Shown: piece after piece, positions 5,168 through 40,407 of the stretch | Position numbering within the stretch: the stretch's first letter is position 1 | How the letters are laid out: each line of letters begins with the position of its first letter | Assembly (NCBI RefSeq): GCF_027925385.1 | Contig: NZ_AP027146.1 | Span: 1-64,000 of the forward strand | DNA: 64,000 bases | DNA from: Methylocystis iwaonis | GTDB taxonomy: Bacteria > Pseudomonadota > Alphaproteobacteria > Rhizobiales > Beijerinckiaceae | Direction of reading: 5' to 3' | Position numbers and translations under genes: made by a program | Notes under the pieces: generated by a model | What the model was told of the DNA's origin: nothing | Database searches by the model: none | The model's input: only the letters and a program-made list of their open reading frames with translations

Positions 5168-7147
<1,980 letters not shown>

Positions 7148-7251
7148 AATGCACCCCTTAGCGCTGATCGGGTCTTGGCTCTTGCTTGTGCTTGGTGGTT
7201 CGCTACTCTGCGGTCGCTAAAAATCGGATCGTGGGCTAACGGTCGTTAAGT

Positions 7252-7282
7252 CCCCTCTCGGCCTGGGAACCGCCGAGAGGGG
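7252..7282. terminator. Strong hairpin between pmoC and ftsH
   Basis: A perfect 11-bp inverted repeat, CCCCTCTCGGC (7252-7262) and GCCGAGAGGGG (7272-7282), with a 9-base loop. No T-run follows on either strand, so a classical intrinsic terminator is doubtful. Its position after pmoC fits a partial terminator or a 3' RNA-stabilising structure that makes pmoC transcript more abundant than ftsH transcript. The ftsH ribosome-binding site (AGGGGTGC) lies about 100 bases further on. Confidence 0.6.
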
Positions 7283-7363
7283 TAAACATCCCTGGGAGCA
7301 ATGGATACATTCCCCGTGCTGACTTTCGTTAGGAGGTCCGACGGACAACGCGGGGAACAGGCA

Positions 7364-8137
7364 TTACTCGCCAGTAAGAAGGGCGACGCCTTCCTTGCCG
7401 AGCAGTCGATGGACGTTCAGCAGGAGCTGCAACACGACGCCGAACACGCCGAGAGCCATCCAACCGAAGAACACGAAGCCCCAGTGCAGCGGAGCCACGA
7501 ACAGCTCTTCCATGAACCAGAAGGTGTGGCCCCATTCATTGAGACCAACGTTCGGGATGATCATGAATGGGCCAATCGACACGATCAGATAGGCGAGCGA
7601 ATAGCCCTTCGAGAAGTAGGGGATCCGCGTCTTCGCATGGAAGAAACAGCCAATCGCCAGGATCGAGTAGATCGGATAGCTCATGTAGAATTCGATGATA
7701 TGCGACGGAGTGAAGTCGGTGTCGCGAATCACCGTCATATGCCAAGTGCCATCCTGCTCGGTGAAGAAGGAGGCGCCCCAGTAGATCGCCGCGGCGTAGC
7801 AGACGAGCCATTTCACATTATCGACGATGGAGCGCATCTCCTGACGCGGCGTGACGGTCGACATGTCGCGCACGCGGGTCTTCCAGAGATAGCCGGCGAG
7901 CGCCAGCCCTGAAATGAGCTCCAGCGGAATTTCCGTCCACAGGATCGACATCCAGTAGGTCTGGAACTCGGGCGCGAAGGAATCGAGCCCCGCGCGCCAG
8001 CCGTAGATTTGCTCGTAGATGCGCACGATCAGATAGAAGCTGTTGAGAAGAGCAAGTCCGATCCATAGGCCTCTGAGGTCAACGATTGGCTTGGCGTCGT
8101 CAGCCACGCCGACCGCAGTCTGCGTTGATATGCTCAT
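7364..8137 (-). CDS. pmoC: Particulate methane monooxygenase subunit C
   Basis: PmoC is the mostly helical integral-membrane subunit of the copper enzyme that oxidises methane to methanol in intracytoplasmic membranes. This 257-residue protein has the normal length. By counting spacing, D129/H133/H146 (in DGTWHMTVIRDTDFTPSH) match the CuC ligands, and N200/H204/H218 (in NEWGHTFWFMEELFVAPLH) match the CuD ligands of characterised pMMOs. ATG 8137 has a GGAGGATC ribosome-binding site; an open frame continues upstream but without family similarity. No pmoA or pmoB is adjacent, so this is an orphan copy. It is divergent from a GlxA/AraC-type regulator gene that may control it. Confidence 0.97.
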   Translation of the reverse strand: MSISTQTAVGVADDAKPIVDLRGLWIGLALLNSFYLIVRIYEQIYGWRAGLDSFAPEFQTYWMSILWTEIPLELISGLALAGYLWKTRVRDMSTVTPRQEMRSIVDNVKWLVCYAAAIYWGASFFTEQDGTWHMTVIRDTDFTPSHIIEFYMSYPIYSILAIGCFFHAKTRIPYFSKGYSLAYLIVSIGPFMIIPNVGLNEWGHTFWFMEELFVAPLHWGFVFFGWMALGVFGVVLQLLLNVHRLLGKEGVALLTGE

Positions 8138-10023: not shown

Positions 10024-10160
10024 CAAGCGCAATTGATCAGGCTGCGTTTTCTCGGATTCCTGCTGTGTAGCGTAACACCATACCGCCACCAGAAAACGGA
10101 TACCTTCTTTGCCTCGATCGCGAGGCCTGTTTGTCGATTTACAGTCCAATGTGAGACCTA

Positions 10161-11025
10161 GAGGGTGTTATGTACTTTGGTCGTTGATTGCCTTAGTAGA
10201 ATCGGATGTCTCCGATTCGGAAGCCTTATCCGTCTGACGTCAACGACGAAGAGTGGTCGCTGGTTGCGCCGTATCTGACGCTCATGGACGAAAGCGCGCC
10301 GCAGCGTCGACATTCGCTGCGCGAACTGTTCAACGGGCTACGTTACGTGCTGCGCTACGGCATCGCATGGCGCGCCATGCCTAATGATCTGCCGCCGTGG
10401 TCGGCCGTGTATCAGCAATCGCAGCGCTGGCTGGCGGCGGGCGTATTCGAGGCGCTGGCGCAGGATTTGCGCGCCGTCTTGCGCGTCGCCTCCGGGCGGG
10501 CTGCCGAGCCGACGGCGGCGATCATCGACAGCCGCACCTTGCGGTCGACCCCGGAGAGCGGCCCGCGAGCCGGTTATGACGGCGCAAAGCGCAAGCGTGG
10601 CTCGAAGCTGCACATGGCGGTCGACACATTGGGCCATCTACTGGCGCTGCATGTCACGCCGGCCAACGTCGACGACCGCGCCGAGGTCGGCAAGCTCATC
10701 GCAGCCGTGCAGGATGTGACAGGCGAAAGCGTCGAACTCGTTTATGTCGATCAGGGCTACACCGGCGAAAAGGCGTACGAGGCGGCAAAGGCGCAGGGCG
10801 CCGAGCTTTGCGTCGTCAAACTCGCCGAGGCGAAGAAGGGCTTCGTGCTGCTGCCCAAGCGCTGGGTGGTCGAGCGTTCATTCGCTTGGGCGACGCGATG
10901 CAGGCGGCTCGTCAAAGATTACGAGCGCTATGCTCAGACCCTCGCAGGACTACACGTCGTCGCTTTCGCATGTCTCATGCTCAAGCGCGCCGCGGAGTTC
11001 ATCATCCAGAGTGCATAACACCCTC
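10161..11025 (+). mobile_element. IS5-family insertion sequence, complete
   Basis: An element of about 865 bp with inverted repeats beginning GAGGGTGTTATG (10161-10172, and reversed at 11014-11025). Similarity continues to about 21 bp. It is flanked by TA on both sides, or CTAG if the first G is counted as target (10158-10161 and 11025-11028); both are known IS5-family duplications. One intact transposase gene lies inside. It is inserted between the dehalogenase and the decayed tni module. Confidence 0.92.
10206..11018 (+). CDS. IS5-family transposase
   Basis: 270 residues. An N-terminal DUF4096-type domain (SDVNDEEWSLVAPYL, then RELFNGLRYVLRYGIAWRAMP) precedes a DDE domain with the AAIIDSRTLRSTP, DQGYTGEKAY and KRWVVERSFAWATRCRRLVKDYE segments, which carry the DDE residues. 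It resembles the single-frame transposases of the IS5 family. It runs intact almost to the right inverted repeat. Confidence 0.94.
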   Translation: MSPIRKPYPSDVNDEEWSLVAPYLTLMDESAPQRRHSLRELFNGLRYVLRYGIAWRAMPNDLPPWSAVYQQSQRWLAAGVFEALAQDLRAVLRVASGRAAEPTAAIIDSRTLRSTPESGPRAGYDGAKRKRGSKLHMAVDTLGHLLALHVTPANVDDRAEVGKLIAAVQDVTGESVELVYVDQGYTGEKAYEAAKAQGAELCVVKLAEAKKGFVLLPKRWVVERSFAWATRCRRLVKDYERYAQTLAGLHVVAFACLMLKRAAEFIIQSA

Positions 11026-11113
11026 TAGGCTGTCACGTTGCACTTAATTGCAATAATGCGCCAGTTCTCGCCGGTCACTGCAGCAAATTGGAGAATCTTT
11101 TGGGGCAAAATTA

Positions 11114-11986
11114 TCAAATATGCTGCAATAATGATAATGCTGCAGACTCGGGCGGAATGCCGAGCATGGTCGTGGCGAGTTCGCTGAAGCGCGTACGGTT
11201 CTGACCAATGGTTTTGCTTTGCAGCCATCCCAGCATAGCCGGTCCCTCGCGATCGACGATCGAGACTCCCGCGAGAAGTGCAGTCCGGACGCATAGGGGC
11301 AAGATCGGGCTTGCCGGGGAAGGCAGCGAGACCTGGCTAGCCACGACAACGGAGTCCGTTTCCGGAACGATGAGGCCAAGAAGCCGGAAGCTACCGCTGC
11401 GCTTCAAATGTGTTGTTCGTGGGTCGCGTTGCATCAGCAGGAGACGCGCCAGTTCCAATGGCGGCGCCCAGCTTTGAACACCATGTTCCGCTTCGTCGTT
11501 AATCAGACGTTGGCCATTGAGCGCTTCGGTCCAATATGAGTTGATAGGTGACGCGATCGCATTCCCTTCATTGGCGCTAAGCGACGAACCGCATTGCGAG
11601 CATGTGATGCGCCATCCGAGAAGTTGACTTCGTCGCACAGGCTCCGGTTCATTCGAATTCGCCTGGCGTCGGCAATTCGCACAGAACTGCATTGACTTTG
11701 CAGCGATCAATCGATGCGACTCTGGGGAAAAATTTGCAAAACTCATCCGCCGAACGATGGACGCGTCCGTTCTGAACGTGTGAGCGATATGAGCGCCTTG
11801 TTCTGTAGTCAGGCCGAGATCGATCGCGCGCATCGCTGACGCATCAGACAGACAATGTCGAAGCATGGTGACAGGCGGAACGCCATAAAAGACGGCGTGC
11901 CGACAGATCCATGACGACAAAAGCTCATCTGTCATGGGTGGAAGCACGACCGGGAGTTGGCCGCAACGAGGAAGTTCCGGCGTCAT
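11114..11986 (-). CDS. tniQ: TniQ-family transposition protein
   Basis: About 290 residues of the TniQ family, which guides target choice in Tn5053/Tn402- and Tn7-like transposition. It has the N-terminal LPPMTDELLSSWICRHAVFYG segment and a zinc ribbon formed by CANCRR and CSQCGS. ATG 11986 is chosen because it overlaps the tniB stop (ATGA). The gene is open, but its partners are not: tniB is broken and tniA is absent. It is therefore probably no longer functional in transposition. Confidence 0.85.
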   Translation of the reverse strand: MTPELPRCGQLPVVLPPMTDELLSSWICRHAVFYGVPPVTMLRHCLSDASAMRAIDLGLTTEQGAHIAHTFRTDASIVRRMSFANFSPESHRLIAAKSMQFCANCRRQANSNEPEPVRRSQLLGWRITCSQCGSSLSANEGNAIASPINSYWTEALNGQRLINDEAEHGVQSWAPPLELARLLLMQRDPRTTHLKRSGSFRLLGLIVPETDSVVVASQVSLPSPASPILPLCVRTALLAGVSIVDREGPAMLGWLQSKTIGQNRTRFSELATTMLGIPPESAALSLLQHI

Positions 11987-34267: not shown

Positions 34268-35161
34268 CTACATCGAAATTGAAACGTAATTGGATTCGAA
34301 AATGCGTTGTTCGCTTTCGATCGCAAGCCGGAGGTGGCAGTAGAGTGCCCAATACTTGCGCCACAGGGGAGCCGTCGGTGGCAAATACTCGATCGGCAAT
34401 CCCATTGTCCGCGCTGCCTCCCAGCCAATCATTTGCCCATGCGAAGGATAGCGGTTGATATCCATCAGTTCGCTGGCGATCTTCGAGAAGTTAGCTCCAC
34501 GTCGCTTCAGAAGATTTTCTGCAAACAGGCGGGCGCGGTCTCTGACCGATTGAAATTTGCGCACGATCACTGGATCAAATTTATCGAAGGTGAGGCGGGT
34601 CGCTTCGTCGTCGGAAGTTTGCGTTAGCGCCTGCCTTGCCTCCTCGTAGGCGGTGAGATATGTCAGTACCGAATAGACGATGTCATGGCCATTCCCGTCT
34701 TTGGAAGATACCTGAGGATCAATCGGTCCTAGCTCGGAGGAATCGCTCATGATGATAGTGTTGGCGCCCAGCGCCATCAGTGTGCCCGCGCTCTTGGCAT
34801 AATCGGGCACGATGACACGCAGCTGCCCCTCCTCGCCGGTCGCATTCCTGACCAGCGTGATCAGTTTCTCGGCGGCATCCACATCGCCGCCAGGCGTGTG
34901 CAGCATCAAATCAATCGGTTCTCCAGGTGTGACGTTGTGGAGCATGTCAACGAACCCGAGCGTGTCGAATCGGTCGACCGGGGCCTTAGTGCCGGCGACA
35001 TAGCAAAGAAGCTTCGGCTGGCTAGCCTCGATTTCACGGATCAAGGTCTGGCGCTGATAGCGCGCCGCATTCATTGCCGTGAACATCGGGGTCTTTTCGA
35101 TCGCTCGCGCCGGCTGGGGCGTGAGCGGTTGCGATTCGACGTCTCTTCCATGGTCATTCAT
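34268..35161 (-). CDS. ClpP-fold serine protease, SDH_sah (serine dehydrogenase proteinase) family
   Basis: 297 residues. The clan SK fold is shown by IDLMLHTPGGDVDAAEKL (oxyanion-hole region) and PDYAKSAGTLMALGA, where S124 is the predicted nucleophile. DSSELGPIDPQ follows, matching the family. ATG 35161 is chosen because it overlaps the DUF6527 stop (ATGA); an upstream ATG (35182) is possible. It is the last gene of the ubiquitin-like operon and could remove or process the Ub-like tag. The tail is helical. Substrate unknown. Confidence 0.82.
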   Translation of the reverse strand: MNDHGRDVESQPLTPQPARAIEKTPMFTAMNAARYQRQTLIREIEASQPKLLCYVAGTKAPVDRFDTLGFVDMLHNVTPGEPIDLMLHTPGGDVDAAEKLITLVRNATGEEGQLRVIVPDYAKSAGTLMALGANTIIMSDSSELGPIDPQVSSKDGNGHDIVYSVLTYLTAYEEARQALTQTSDDEATRLTFDKFDPVIVRKFQSVRDRARLFAENLLKRRGANFSKIASELMDINRYPSHGQMIGWEAARTMGLPIEYLPPTAPLWRKYWALYCHLRLAIESEQRIFESNYVSISM

Positions 35162-35493
35162 CGGTCGCTGTCCTTGGTCCATATGATTTTGCCGTTACGA
35201 ACAAAATAATGACAGCGTCTGTCTGTACCGCGATAATCGACGCTAGGATAGATACCTAATCGAGACGAAGCATTCAGCGTCCAGTAGGGCCGGCGGACCG
35301 GGTCAGAGTTCAACATAATTCTATGTCCGGTACGACACGGACAGTCGAAGACAATCCATTTGATATGGCGCAGATCTCCGACTAAAACGATGGCGTTACG
35401 CGGCAACCGTTGGGGCACCTCGTCGGCAGAGGATACTGAGCCGATTGTACGCCAGCGCCAGAAAGGCAGCCATTGCCACCACGCGATTTTCAT
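35158..35493 (-). CDS. DUF6527 family protein of the ubiquitin-like operon
   Basis: 111 residues. The core has IKWIVFDCPCRTGHRIMLN with a CPC motif and HYFVRNGKIIW near the end, typical of small DUF6527 proteins found next to multiubiquitin/E1 genes. Tryptophan-rich N-terminus. ATG 35493 overlaps the upstream E1 stop (ATGA), and its own stop overlaps the protease start. The CPC and histidine could bind a metal. Role in tagging unknown. Confidence 0.75.
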   Translation of the reverse strand: MKIAWWQWLPFWRWRTIGSVSSADEVPQRLPRNAIVLVGDLRHIKWIVFDCPCRTGHRIMLNSDPVRRPYWTLNASSRLGIYPSVDYRGTDRRCHYFVRNGKIIWTKDSDR

Positions 35494-36875
35494 ACTGTCA
35501 CCCACAGTTGTCCAAGGAACGGGTCTTCATCGCCGGCACCCCATTTGCCCTGTGCTTGATGGCAGTAGTGAGCGTCATGTGGGAAAGCGCGATTCGTTGA
35601 AATCTCGCGTTCGTGGAGTCTGAGCAGCGTCTCGGTAGGTCGCTCCGGGGGGCCATATCCGATCAGGCGATCAAGCAATTCATTCACGGCCGCGGCGGCG
35701 ACGGCGGTGGTGAACGCCACCACCGCCGGCTCAACCCGACCAAGCGCGGGGGCGTATCCTTCGTTGGCCAACCGTTGTCTCTCGTCAGGCGACTTCATCT
35801 CGGCGGATGCACGACCTAAGTCGACTCGGTTACGGCAAACCAGACAGCCCGCGCCAGGCGTCAGCGTCGTGACCCGCGCGTCAATACCAATGAGCGTGCC
35901 CGCTTGATCGCTGCTTAACAATACCCCAACGTCTATTACCGGGGTCAGGAGATAGGTAGAGATTCTGGAGAGCACGAGCCGGCCAGCATTGTCGTCGGTG
36001 CATCCGAAAATCAGGTCGCAGCTGCGCAGCGCCCAAGCAACGCTCCGAGTAGTAATCATCCCGTCCACGATAGAACAGTCGAGGTCTGAAGCGATTGCCA
36101 GGAGATGATCGCGTAGCACCTCAACCTTTAGTTGACCGACGCGCCCAGGCGTGGAGCCGTAGACCCGTGTGACATTGCTCTCGGATAAGCTGTCGTTATC
36201 AATCAGCAGCAGATGGCGAACGCCCAGCCGGACGAGCTGCTCGGCGACAGCCGACCCTGTCCCTCCGGCTCCGACGATGCCAATGCGCAGGTCTCCGAGA
36301 ATCGTCTGGATAGCTGGGCCGAAAGCGCGAACGTTACGGTCAAACAGCGCTTCCGGCAGAGTGGCCTGCCGCGCGAAGGCTGGCATGAGCTTCCAGCGCT
36401 CGCCGACCACCCACAACCGGTCAATCGACGACGTCTCCCCGGTCTCCGGTGTCAACTCGCCGCTGAATACGTAATCCGCGCCTCGCGGAGATGCGATCAA
36501 CGTTCCGTATAAGCCTGAGCCACTGCGCAGCTGAAAGAGGTCAGCTATCTCGCGATCGACCTGACGATCGTGATTGCTCGGCAACGGTGCACCCTCTTCG
36601 CCGGGATGGGTGTGAAACCAAATTGGAACGGCGTGATCCGCTTCGGCTGCACCGAGCGCCGGCACATAACCTTGAGAAGCTATCAGCAGATGGTGCGGGC
36701 TCTGTTCGATGTAGGCCTCCGGCGGAACCGGATGCAAGCTACGCGCGAGAAGTCGGACATCTCGCCCCGCCTCGATTCGGCGAGCGAGGAGAACAGCAGC
36801 GCATTCCATCGAATTGCGCGAGGCCGTCGCGACCTCCTCCGAGAGCGGACCCGGAATTACGAGCGTCGTTGTCAT
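35490..36875 (-). CDS. JAB (JAMM) isopeptidase-E1 (ThiF) fusion protein
   Basis: 461 residues. The N-terminal JAB domain (to about 160) has E24, the H88-x-H90 pair in WFHTHPGE and S100/D103 in PLPSNHD, matching the JAMM zinc-protease signature. The C-terminal ThiF/E1 domain (about 165-410) has the ATP loop VGAGGTGS (201-208), LLLIDNDSLSESNVTR and a C344LVC347 pair. E1 enzymes adenylate the C-terminus of Ub-like proteins, and JAB domains cleave isopeptide or precursor bonds. ATG 36875 overlaps the E2-like stop; upstream frame sequence is low-complexity. Both active sites appear intact. Confidence 0.9.
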   Translation of the reverse strand: MTTTLVIPGPLSEEVATASRNSMECAAVLLARRIEAGRDVRLLARSLHPVPPEAYIEQSPHHLLIASQGYVPALGAAEADHAVPIWFHTHPGEEGAPLPSNHDRQVDREIADLFQLRSGSGLYGTLIASPRGADYVFSGELTPETGETSSIDRLWVVGERWKLMPAFARQATLPEALFDRNVRAFGPAIQTILGDLRIGIVGAGGTGSAVAEQLVRLGVRHLLLIDNDSLSESNVTRVYGSTPGRVGQLKVEVLRDHLLAIASDLDCSIVDGMITTRSVAWALRSCDLIFGCTDDNAGRLVLSRISTYLLTPVIDVGVLLSSDQAGTLIGIDARVTTLTPGAGCLVCRNRVDLGRASAEMKSPDERQRLANEGYAPALGRVEPAVVAFTTAVAAAAVNELLDRLIGYGPPERPTETLLRLHEREISTNRAFPHDAHYCHQAQGKWGAGDEDPFLGQLWVTV

Positions 36876-37261
36876 GCTGCCAGCGCCGCAGCGGCGGCGG
36901 CGACCTCTTTGCGGACGAGCGCCAGATAGCTTTCCAGCGAGTCGAGCCCGGAGCGCCACTGGCCCGGATTGAGGTGGCGTGACCAGCGCTGCCAAGTGCG
37001 CCCAAGGTAGACCTCTTGAGATTCAGTTGCGGCGATAAGGCGCCCATCGATGCGGCGCACAGCCGGCTCAAACCACCACATGTCAGGTGCGATGTCGGGG
37101 TAACCTGGCGACAGACGCAGGAGAAGATCGGCGCTTGAGTGGTTGAATCCCTCCGGCAAGGAGAAGGCGGGAATGACAACGCAAATCATGCCACCCTCCA
37201 GCGTCACGGAGCTGCCCGGCGCTCGCGCCTCAAGGTAATTTTGATCGATAGTAGGCAACAT
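36872..37261 (-). CDS. E2-like (ubiquitin-conjugating fold) protein without a canonical catalytic cysteine
   Basis: 129 residues. The pattern of an E2/RWD-like fold is visible: CVVIPAFSLPEGFNHSSADLLLRLSPGYPDIAPDMWWFEPAV, followed by a helical WSRHLNPGQWRSGLDSLESYLALVRKEV end. The only cysteine (C27, in an early strand) is not where the E2 nucleophile lies. Any covalent transfer would need another residue, or the protein acts as an adaptor. It lies 14 bases after the multiubiquitin gene and overlaps the E1 start. Confidence 0.8.
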   Translation of the reverse strand: MLPTIDQNYLEARAPGSSVTLEGGMICVVIPAFSLPEGFNHSSADLLLRLSPGYPDIAPDMWWFEPAVRRIDGRLIAATESQEVYLGRTWQRWSRHLNPGQWRSGLDSLESYLALVRKEVAAAAAALAA

Positions 37262-37275
37262 CAGCGTACTCCCTA

Positions 37276-37545
37276 CTAGCGGCCGGGGTTGATCTGGGCC
37301 GGTGCAGTGAAGAAACGCAAGCCGTTGCGCATCTCCACCTTGGTATCCGTATCGATTTTCACATCGGATCCTCCCGGCACCACTTCGAAAAGGTCACGGT
37401 CTGGCCCGATGTCAGGCTCCGGTAAACGCCGCAGCTCGCCGCCAGTCAGCACCATTTCTCGAACTTTGTAGTTTGTGCGGTCGATCTTGATCTCGAATGC
37501 CTGGGGACGATCAGGCCTTAGCGCGTCCACACGATCATTATCCAT
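37276..37545 (-). CDS. Multiubiquitin-domain (Ub-like) protein, single domain
   Basis: 89 residues matching the multiubiquitin family: FEIKIDRTNYKV, VLTGGELRRLPEPDIGPDRDLFEVVPGG, then VEMRNGLRFFTAPAQINPGR. There is one domain only. The C-terminus is -NPGR, so a protease must remove Arg, or conjugation uses an unusual end, if Gly is to be activated. It is the first gene of a five-gene operon (tag, E2-like, JAB-E1, DUF6527, protease). ATG 37545 has a GGAGGTGG site. It is divergent from an RHH gene with 8-bp repeats between. Confidence 0.9.
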   Translation of the reverse strand: MDNDRVDALRPDRPQAFEIKIDRTNYKVREMVLTGGELRRLPEPDIGPDRDLFEVVPGGSDVKIDTDTKVEMRNGLRFFTAPAQINPGR

Positions 37546-37564: not shown

Positions 37565-37588
37565 GATACCCTGATACCACGACACCAC
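37565..37588. promoter_or_regulatory. Three tandem 8-bp repeats in the Ub-operon/RHH intergenic region
   Basis: GATACCCT, GATACCAC and GACACCAC follow head to tail (37565, 37573, 37581). They sit between the divergent multiubiquitin and RHH genes, just after the Ub-operon start and before a TTGACA (37594-37599). RHH proteins typically bind such closely spaced tandem repeats, so the RHH protein may repress both directions. Confidence 0.6.
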
Positions 37589-37628
37589 GTATATTGACAA
37601 GCAGTCTGATTTGGTTCAGAAAAGCACT

Positions 37629-37835
37629 ATGAAACAAGTCAAAGCGATGACTGTCCGCCTCTCCGAAGATCAGGCTCAGGCCCTCGAGATGCTCGCAAGC
37701 GTTGAAAATCGGCCCGTGTCGGACGTGATTCGTTCTGCTATCACCACCCACATTGAGACACGCCGTCGCGATCCAAAATTTCAGGCCGGGCTTAAGGACC
37801 GTATCTCGCAAGCGCGCAAGCTTCTCGACCGATGA
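37629..37835 (+). CDS. Ribbon-helix-helix (CopG-type) DNA-binding protein
   Basis: 68 residues: MKQVKAMTVRLSEDQAQALEMLASVENRPVSDVIRSAITTHIETRR is a standard RHH (beta strand, two helices), followed by a short basic tail. It is probably an autoregulated repressor or antitoxin. ATG 37629; an in-frame TTG at 37611 is less likely. It is followed after 52 bases by the VbhA-like/Fic pair and divergent from the ubiquitin-like operon, so it may link control of both. Confidence 0.8.
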   Translation: MKQVKAMTVRLSEDQAQALEMLASVENRPVSDVIRSAITTHIETRRRDPKFQAGLKDRISQARKLLDR

Positions 37836-37887: not shown

Positions 37888-38091
37888 ATGAAGAAGACAC
37901 CGAAGCGTTTTGGCGGCACTGATCTCGTCCTCGGGCAGCAGACGTTCGCTGCCATCTCGGCGGTGGAAGGGTTAGGCCTCAGCGTCGCGAGCCGCAAGCG
38001 GCTGGCCGACATGAAGAAGCGCAAGCTATCCACCGATCAACAGCGGTCCGAAGTTATCCGCGCCTATTTGGACGCTAAGTCGCGTAGGTGA
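37888..38091 (+). CDS. VbhA-like antitoxin of the Fic toxin
   Basis: 67 residues with FAAISAVEGLGLSVASRKRLADMKKRKLSTDQQRSEVIRAY, the layout of VbhA-type Fic inhibitors. These obstruct the Fic ATP site with an (S/T)xxxE(G/N) helix. Here the helix reads ISAVEG: the glutamate-glycine pair is present but the serine is three rather than four residues before it, so the match is imperfect. ATG 37888; the stop overlaps the GTG start of the Fic gene. Confidence 0.72.
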   Translation: MKKTPKRFGGTDLVLGQQTFAAISAVEGLGLSVASRKRLADMKKRKLSTDQQRSEVIRAYLDAKSRR

Positions 38092-38666
38092 GAGCGCTCG
38101 GCTACGACGCATTCGACGACCCCTACGCCTACAAAGGCATAAACACGCTCAAGAACAAGCTCGGCCTGCGCGATCCGGATTTGCTTGAGGCGTTTGAACT
38201 CGAAATGACGGCGATCCGAGCGCGCGAGCCTTTGCCACGCGGAGTTTACGACGCGCTTCACTACCGCCGCGTCCACCGCCACCTGTTTCAGGACGTCTAC
38301 AGCTGGGCCGGAAAATATCGAACTGTGCGTACGTCTAAAGGAGGTAACCCGTTTTGCTTTCCCGAGCACATCGACGCACAAATGAAGCGCTTGTTTGGGA
38401 CGCTTGGGATAGTTTTGAATTCGCCACATGCTGATGACTTCGCCCGTGAGGCAGCGCGTTTTCTCGGTGAGTTAAACGCGATTCATCCGTTCCGAGAGGG
38501 CAATGGGCGCTCCCAGCTGACCTTTATAGCGATGATCGGGGAACGGGCCGGCTATCCGTTAGCCTTCGCGCGTGTGAAGCGCGAAAGCTTTCTGCCGGCG
38601 ATGATCCGCAGCTACGAGGGCGACCTTAATCCGTTGATCGCCGAGCTTCGCCTCCTACTTGGCTAA
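38088..38666 (+). CDS. fic: Fic/DOC family protein (AMP-transferase toxin)
   Basis: 192 residues. The catalytic motif HPFREGNGRSQ (H133-Q143) is complete. The upstream flap region FQDVYSWAGKYRTVRTSKGG is also conserved. Fic proteins usually transfer AMP to hydroxyl groups of target proteins. GTG 38088 overlaps the antitoxin stop (GTGA), typical of tightly coupled toxin-antitoxin pairs. VbhT-like Fic toxins are often linked to conjugation systems; this one has no fused secretion signal. It is probably a plasmid stabiliser or interbacterial toxin. Confidence 0.9.
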   Translation: MRALGYDAFDDPYAYKGINTLKNKLGLRDPDLLEAFELEMTAIRAREPLPRGVYDALHYRRVHRHLFQDVYSWAGKYRTVRTSKGGNPFCFPEHIDAQMKRLFGTLGIVLNSPHADDFAREAARFLGELNAIHPFREGNGRSQLTFIAMIGERAGYPLAFARVKRESFLPAMIRSYEGDLNPLIAELRLLLG

Positions 38667-39357: not shown

Positions 39358-40407
39358 GTGGCAGAATTCTGGGAAGACCTCGTCGGGATCAACGAGATCG
39401 CCGCCATGACCGGTGTCTCGCGACAGGCCGTTGCCAATTGGAGAGTCCGAGCCGCTGATTTTCCGAAGCCAGTTCGCGAGCTGGCTTCGGGCCCAATTTT
39501 CCGGCGCTCCCAGATTCGCGCCTGGTTAAAGCGCCACAAGAGAAAAGGGAAGCCGATGACCCACGTAATTTCTACGATTAACTTAAAAGGCGGAGTCGCG
39601 AAGACAACGACTACCGTTGCTCTAGCTGAGACGTTCTCTGCGAATATGGGCAAGAAGGTGCTGGTGATCGACCTTGACCCCCAAACCAACGCCACGCTGA
39701 TGTTGATTGGCGAGGAGAAATGGTTCGAATTGAACAAAAAGGAACAGACTTTAGCGCGTCTATTTAAGGATGCGATGGACCCCGACAATCGTAAATTCAA
39801 TTTGGAGGGCACGCTTCAGAAGCAAGTATCCGACGTGGGCGCTGCGCGAACCATCGACCTGCTGCCATCGAGCCTCGACCTCATCGACGTCCAGGACAAA
39901 CTCGCCTCGGCCCCCGCGGGGAAATTCTACGCGGCCAATCCGATCGATCTGCTCTGGCGAGCCGTAAAGGGAAAGCTCGATGATTACGACGTCGTCATTG
40001 TCGATTGCCCTCCTAACCTAGGGATTATCACTTTGAACGGTCTTCGAATCTCCGAAGGCTATATAATTCCCACAATTCCGGACCATCTCTCGACCTATGG
40101 CATTCCACAGATTACCACGCGCATCAGGGACTTTTCTGAAGCCATCTCCGAAACCATCGAGCCTGTTGGAATCGTTGCGACCAAGTACCAAGCCAATTCA
40201 ACGGTGCATAATAACGTGCTGAAGCAGCTTCGAGAAGATGCCGATCTTCCCGACGTGATGGATACCATTATCCGGCAGGCGAATGCGGTCGCCGCTGCGG
40301 CCGAATTCCAGATGTACTCGCGAACCCTAAAGCAGAAGTACGGAGCAGAGCTGGCGGGTCAGTACGATGACCTCGCCAGAGAGATCTGGTCTGCCCTGGA
40401 GGCGTGA
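39358..40407 (+). CDS. HTH-ParA fusion ATPase of a three-gene HEPN operon
   Basis: 349 residues. An N-terminal MerR/excisionase-like HTH (GINEIAAMTGVSRQAVANWRVRAADFP) occupies residues 8-60. A complete ParA domain follows: deviant Walker A KGGVAKT at 77-83, LVIDLDPQTN (Walker A') and VVIVDCPPNLG (Walker B region). Start GTG 39358; ATG at residue 67 would give ParA alone. Such HTH-ParA proteins repress their own promoter and can segregate DNA. The next gene starts 2 bases after its stop. It is not related closely to the ParA at 29495. Confidence 0.88.
   Translation: MAEFWEDLVGINEIAAMTGVSRQAVANWRVRAADFPKPVRELASGPIFRRSQIRAWLKRHKRKGKPMTHVISTINLKGGVAKTTTTVALAETFSANMGKKVLVIDLDPQTNATLMLIGEEKWFELNKKEQTLARLFKDAMDPDNRKFNLEGTLQKQVSDVGAARTIDLLPSSLDLIDVQDKLASAPAGKFYAANPIDLLWRAVKGKLDDYDVVIVDCPPNLGIITLNGLRISEGYIIPTIPDHLSTYGIPQITTRIRDFSEAISETIEPVGIVATKYQANSTVHNNVLKQLREDADLPDVMDTIIRQANAVAAAAEFQMYSRTLKQKYGAELAGQYDDLAREIWSALEA

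Follow-up and report, generated by a model that had tools for sequence, protein, structure and literature searches.

Within a window of 64,000 nucleotides from Methylocystis iwaonis (contig NZ_AP027146.1, positions 1–64,000 of the forward strand), which is the whole stretch of DNA analysed here, five genes form a run on the minus strand (37545–34268) that encodes, in this order, a ubiquitin-like (Ubl) tag, an E2 protein, a JAB–E1 fusion, a DUF6527 protein, and a protease. The BubA-like tag (37276–37545; 89 amino acids) matches PF14452 (28 bits, cut-off 24.5) and consists of one beta-grasp domain; an earlier note on this DNA had called it a multiubiquitin-domain tag, and the tag does belong to the Multi_ubiq family, with one Ubl domain and not several. 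The following genes encode a BubB-like E2 of family E (36872–37261; PF14462, Prok-E2_E, 120.7 bits), a BubCD-like JAB–E1 fusion of 461 amino acids (35490–36875; ThiF, 121.1 bits), a DUF6527 protein of 111 amino acids (35158–35493; PF20137, 63.9 bits), and a ClpP-fold serine protease of the SDH type (34268–35161; PF01972, SDH_protease, 63.5 bits), and each of these five Pfam matches exceeds its cut-off. A gap of 14 bases lies 3′ of the tag gene (37262–37275) and the three remaining junctions are ATGA overlaps (36872–36875, 35490–35493, and 35158–35161), so that the single operon described in the earlier note is borne out by reading frames and Pfam matches. The third overlap favours 35161 as the first base of the protease gene (297 amino acids) over the listed start at 35182 (304 amino acids); protease residue numbers given below are counted from 35182, in the 304-residue frame.

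Genes one to four belong to a system that has been described before, the polyUbl operon of Iyer et al. (2006), today named Bub: their order is the known one, and the closest solved relatives of the E1 and E2 proteins are Citrobacter BubCD (E 8e-26) and BubB (E 1e-13), the best matches in the PDB (9ea4, 9ea5, 9eae, and 9eav). Domains, gene order, and nearest solved proteins thus agree in identifying a ubiquitin-like conjugation operon, as the earlier note had proposed. In the portion of Iyer et al. available (PMC1779556), these operons are described as carried on mobile elements and encoding a polyUbl, a cysteine-less protein of the E2/RWD-like kind, a JAB–E1 fusion, and a metal-binding protein, the Ubl domains being tabulated as usually in tandem and as solo in one species. 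The mobile row 6e of that scheme has the same components in the same order as the window, from Ubl to the metal-binding protein Y, and the window operon has each of its features, namely an Ubl with glycine (INPG, then R), a cysteine-less E2, a JAB–E1 fusion, and DUF6527 after E1. A protease is not among the components described for row 6e in this portion of the paper, whereas the window operon has one. The Y protein was predicted to be a zinc finger, perhaps of the treble-clef type (PMC1779556), whereas the DUF6527 model from the window is all-beta; DUF6527 is putatively the small metal-binding protein of the polyUbl scheme.

Relatives were gathered by a scan with the E2 alignment, using one genome per species, which yielded 212 confirmed loci, and the best 80 of the 212 (by match to the window E2) were kept, with genes called by profiles made here from a few seeds. 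These 80 loci contain E1 and E2 throughout, DUF6527 in 79, the tag domain in 77, and the protease in 48; as flanking genes, an RHH gene (encoding a ribbon-helix-helix protein) is found in 49, a Fic gene in 18, and a small gene in 15. The protease gene stands directly 3′ of DUF6527 in 47 of its 48 loci and upstream in the other (L054), and the 48 loci are spread over seven named phyla, with one locus lacking a phylum. Because the five-gene order recurs in 47 of the 80 loci and on plasmids of Rhizobium, Methylocystis, and Phenylobacterium, it is not due to chance; the conservation of gene order that the earlier note wished to see checked is therefore found, and the SDH-type protease that it had listed as the last gene is a conserved member of the subtype and not a chance neighbour. 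We consider it very likely that the operon is a conjugation operon of the Bub type (polyUbl, row 6e) and represents a separate subtype that bears a protease.

A tree of E1 proteins, for which 90 loci out of 92 were used (L007 and L084, being fragments, were dropped), made by a quick method with one support value and no inferred root, places all 52 protease rows inside one fork of 57 rows (support 99), 21 of the 87 inner branches of the tree being unsupported. The five protease-less rows of this fork are L043, L063, L044, L064, and L065, and the protease label requires four changes on the tree, most simply a single gain with three losses, the tree being unrooted. Two of these five loci, L043 and L063, both of the INPG type, carry a dCTPase-type deaminase gene directly 3′ of DUF6527 (10056–11699 and 5871–7400, respectively, the call in L063 resting on 47% identity to the L043 gene), and its presence in the protease slot fits exchangeable effectors in this sample of two. 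Rhizobium gallicum (L013) and Rhizobium T1473 (L014) resemble the window in having Ubl–E2, E1–JAB, and DUF6527 followed by an SDH-type protease, but they differ in that Ubl and E2 are fused, the protease is 25–26% identical, and the loci lie far off in the E1 tree; the profile scan found no RHH match in either. Since an SDH protease, if a distant one, follows DUF6527 there too, the link from Bub to SDH proteases has been seen twice.

In plasmid records, the protease is matched over most of its length with at least 46% identity by five records, each with E1 adjacent, and the next matches are at about 30% identity, with short stretches of up to 54%. In a survey of the order to which the window belongs, which covered 397 genomes and scored at most five protease candidates per genome, E2 was found in 16, and a Bub-type protease (at least 375 bits) was found in the window's own genome and in G375, with E2 about 2 kb away in both. 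Weaker SDH proteases (at most 127 bits) occur in 34 other genomes, none with an E2 match; independent occurrence of the families, which the earlier note had raised as a concern, thus holds for these weaker proteases, and the Bub-type protease was seen solely beside Bub in these 397 genomes. The literature searched, with the main Bub papers outside its reach and perhaps describing the protease, did not mention that Bub or polyUbl operons carry a protease, RHH, Fic, or DUF6527; the protease-bearing subtype is what the window adds to the known Bub system.

The RHH gene of the window (37629–37835, plus strand) encodes a DUF6290/RHH_1 protein (PF19807, 27.3 bits, cut-off 27; RHH_1, 23.5 bits, cut-off 20.5). 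Such a gene is divergent to the operon in 44 of the 48 protease loci, and five RHH loci of the 80 are without protease; of the four protease loci without RHH, three (L045, L049, and L103) have a CapP-like gene (ImmA/IrrE, M78) upstream and the fourth (L067) is broken. The intergenic stretch between the RHH gene and the tag contains a tandem 8-bp repeat, GGTGTCgtGGTATCagGGTATC (37565–37586, minus strand), next to a TTGTCA at 37595–37600. Searched with one mismatch allowed, the repeat pattern GGTATCnnGGTATC (GGTATC in tandem, 8 bp) occurs in 32 of 54 RHH intergenic stretches, with 44 matches in about 17 kb (a match in L004 outside the chosen interval is uncounted), as against seven matches in the 754 kb that make up the rest of the RHH loci, one in 38 loci without RHH, and, with mononucleotide shuffles, a mean of 0.045 of 54. 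The tandem GGTATC repeat is probably the operator of the RHH protein. In the part of the Bub study available (EMBO J 2026; PMC13373217), 544 operons and the regulators CapW, CapH+CapP, and CapK+CapS are described, and RHH would be a candidate regulator beyond these three.

The tag of the window ends in INPG followed by a one-residue tail (R), and INPG with a tail is found in all 52 standalone tags from protease loci, the tail being 1–26 residues long (the longest may be misread gene ends). Standalone tags that end exactly at G are those of L008, L009, L088, and L094 (and, by eye, L091), all of them loci without protease. No cysteine is found among the columns of the E2 alignment conserved at 90%; the window E2 contains the motif WQRWSRH, whose S94 and H96 are kept in 92 of 93 rows and whose RWSRH portion is common to Citrobacter BubB. 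Conjugation by Bub reportedly proceeds via a serine oxyester intermediate. The Prok-JAB domain of the E1 fusion scores 21.2 bits, under the cut-off of 25, and has a complete JAMM set (E24, H88-x-H90, S100, and D103) that is kept in 89–90 of 91 rows.

The protease model shows the ClpP/1510-N fold with S131 as the nucleophilic serine, and S131, D155, and H248 are invariant in 45 rows, making S131 with D155 and H248 as partners the candidate active site. The fold is that of 1510-N (PH1510) and ClpP, and S131 aligns with S97 of 1510-N (residue numbers by our own count); in contrast to these, the window protease is without lysine at the K138 position and its operon is without an ATPase partner. DUF6527 has seven invariant residues in 91 rows (C51, P52, W71, P83, S84, H95, and W105), with the pattern CPCxxxH...CH in most of the INPG group and CPxGC...CxC/SH in others; as L008 keeps C51 and H95 and loses the other putative metal ligands, this pair may be catalytic. 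Its predicted structure is all-beta (predicted local distance difference test, pLDDT, 93.1), and no PDB entry matched the model (m13a223f49cac) with E of 0.001 or less; DUF6527 thus stands out as a protein of the Bub core for which no match to a known fold was recognised. The same model is matched by two unnamed viral proteins of 88–89 amino acids (A0A8E7FZU2 and A0A7S5UXZ9), possibly phage copies or inhibitors.

Several other systems were compared with the window. Type II cyclic oligonucleotide-based antiphage signalling systems (CBASS) combine a CD-NTase and an E1–E2 fusion beside a JAB protein, and this identity was ruled out, there being no CD-NTase among the five genes, a separate E2, and a JAB domain fused to E1. 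Bil (BilABCD), with its CEHH catalytic cysteine in E2 and separate JAB and E1 (PMC11354881, in the part of its text available), was likewise ruled out by the absence of a conserved E2 cysteine and by the JAB–E1 fusion. PADLOC, to which six window proteins were submitted, returned matches limited to E1 (E1–E2 models) and Fic. A related plasmid locus of Citrobacter koseri (L010) has several Ubl domains (two by Pfam) fused to E2, unlike the window, in which a single-Ubl tag and E2 are separate genes, and neither a protease nor an RHH match was found there in the profile scan. The cassette on Synechocystis plasmid pSYSX (L009; PMC4963859, as far as its available text goes) shares with the window a tag, E2, E1, and DUF6527 in matching gene order on a plasmid beside a toxin–antitoxin (TA)-like pair, but has helix-turn-helix and ImmA/IrrE genes where the window has RHH, a tag ending exactly at G, and no protease match in the profile scan.

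Beyond the RHH gene, the plus strand encodes a small conserved protein with a FAAISAVEG segment (37888–38091) and, as its companion, the Fic protein (38088–38666; PF02661, 61.3 bits; motif HPFREGNGRSQL) that the earlier note had reported near the operon. All 18 loci with Fic among the 80 also have the protease. The usual Fic motif ends in R; of the 22 motif-bearing Fic open reading frames beside these operons, 19 have L or M as the final residue, and R is kept in three Sphingomonadales loci, which have another Fic type. The small protein, with its near-fixed FAAI(S/T)A(V/I)EG segment (window and 18 related open reading frames), goes with Fic in each of the 19 loci that have the window's Fic type; we take this segment to be near, not equal to, the Fic-antitoxin motif, and in three relatives no Pfam match of the small protein reached its cut-off.

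The virB and virD4-type genes of the window (about 42.0–54.1 kb) match a plasmid of M. iwaonis with 88.5% identity over 54% of the query, by which the attribution to a conjugative plasmid of a methanotroph, made in the earlier note, is well supported. On a related M. iwaonis plasmid (NZ_CP143317.1, 65327–70706), a ParDE pair comes after the relaxase gene and before a virD4-type gene, and in the window the slot between relaxase and virD4 holds the Bub–RHH–Fic block and a ParA-like gene (39358–40407, by eye); from this arrangement the slot appears to be an exchangeable cargo site and the Bub cassette its cargo. Two contigs of the window's genome, C4 (83,290 bp) and C5 (80,096 bp), are related plasmid contigs, of which C4 also carries the cassette; about 46 kb of their sequence, the cassette among it, form one block that is identical in both, and their other alignable parts differ by 0.3–18%, so that they are either two recombining sister plasmids with a recent exchange or contain a stretch assembled twice.

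The explanation that we consider best overall, and fairly probable, is a protease-bearing Bub subtype that is controlled by RHH and combines tagging with cleavage. The RHH protein, bound to the tandem GGTATC repeats between its own gene and the tag gene, would hold the operon off, and stress or invasion would lead to its expression, by analogy with the control of other Bub operons by CapH/P, CapW, and CapK/S. The INPG tail must be trimmed for the tag to end in glycine, a step that the JAB domain would perform; the E1 domain would then adenylate the tag, and the cysteine-less E2 would hand it to a target, perhaps via the serine or histidine of RWSRH, with DUF6527 as a core partner that may choose targets. 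The ClpP-fold protease, which probably acts on the tag or on tagged proteins, would cut tagged proteins or the tag linkage; we favour cleavage of tagged targets and advance it over tag removal tentatively. Rather unlikely in its full extent is the wider proposal of a widespread mobile ‘tag and cut’ machine, switched by RHH and GGTATC, in which cysteine-free Ubl tagging would mark proteins for a dedicated ClpP-fold protease and DUF6527 would combine an all-beta, unrecognised fold with a catalytic C51–H95 pair.

Several observations weigh against this explanation, most strongly that close relatives manage without the protease. Eleven of 21 protease-less standalone tags are also tailed (10 INPG and 1 LNPG), by which neither tag maturation nor the core pathway requires the protease, and the survey of the order showed the protease in just a minority of Bub genomes (2 of 16). 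The repeat pattern fails in 22 of the 54 RHH loci, 17 of them with protease, and all five RHH loci without protease are also without the repeat; neither at the TTGTCA nor at the repeat did a promoter scan find a clear promoter. Moreover, the 80-locus sample leans to the kin of the window, and many loci are metagenome bins whose phylum labels may contain errors. If the protease were a second maturase or a tag remover, it would trim the INPG tail or cut the target linkage as a serine-type deconjugase beside JAB: every readable INPG tag in protease loci offers a tail for removal, the protease is absent where standalone tags end exactly at G, and a serine hydrolase would suit the linkage should this be an ester. 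This role seems unlikely to us, given a JAMM site intact in nearly all rows, the eleven tailed tags of protease-less loci, and tails too variable in sequence and length to resemble the site of a single protease. That the protease is instead a regulator, cleaving the RHH repressor or another control protein, has a precedent in CapP, which cleaves CapH and is found with it beside Bub operons (PMC13373217, in its available part), and would suit the company that RHH keeps with the protease (RHH in 44 of 48 protease loci, and five RHH loci without protease); we regard it as very improbable, for L045, L049, and L103 keep the protease with a CapP-like gene and without RHH, and the protease gene comes last in the operon whose expression it would need to start.

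A further alternative concerns the cassette as a whole, which would serve plasmid maintenance (addiction) or general stress and not phage defence. The antitoxin-type RHH, the Fic and small genes, and ParDE in the same plasmid slot of M. iwaonis point that way, as do statements in the available parts of two papers that 70% of PF14452 proteins adjoin potential TA loci (PMC4963859) and that phage protection by Bub is not demonstrated (PMC13373217); but just 18 of the 48 loci with protease have Fic, several loci are found on contigs hundreds of kb long that are perhaps chromosomes, and a dCTPase-type gene follows DUF6527 in two relatives. We view this alternative as possible, if somewhat doubtful, and addiction and defence are not mutually exclusive. 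The cassette may have the defence or addiction role that the earlier note held plausible, though the hints of defence are thin: the dCTPase-type gene in the two protease-less loci and the CapP-like genes upstream in three intact RHH-less protease loci.

In the protease-bearing Bub subtype, found in seven named phyla, the tagging genes share one operon with a protease of their own. The close protease-less relatives, as a natural control, together with the candidate regulator site make it testable whether bacteria use such ubiquitin-like tags to direct proteolysis. If true, the ‘tag and cut’ system would be a self-contained mobile counterpart of ubiquitin-directed proteolysis.

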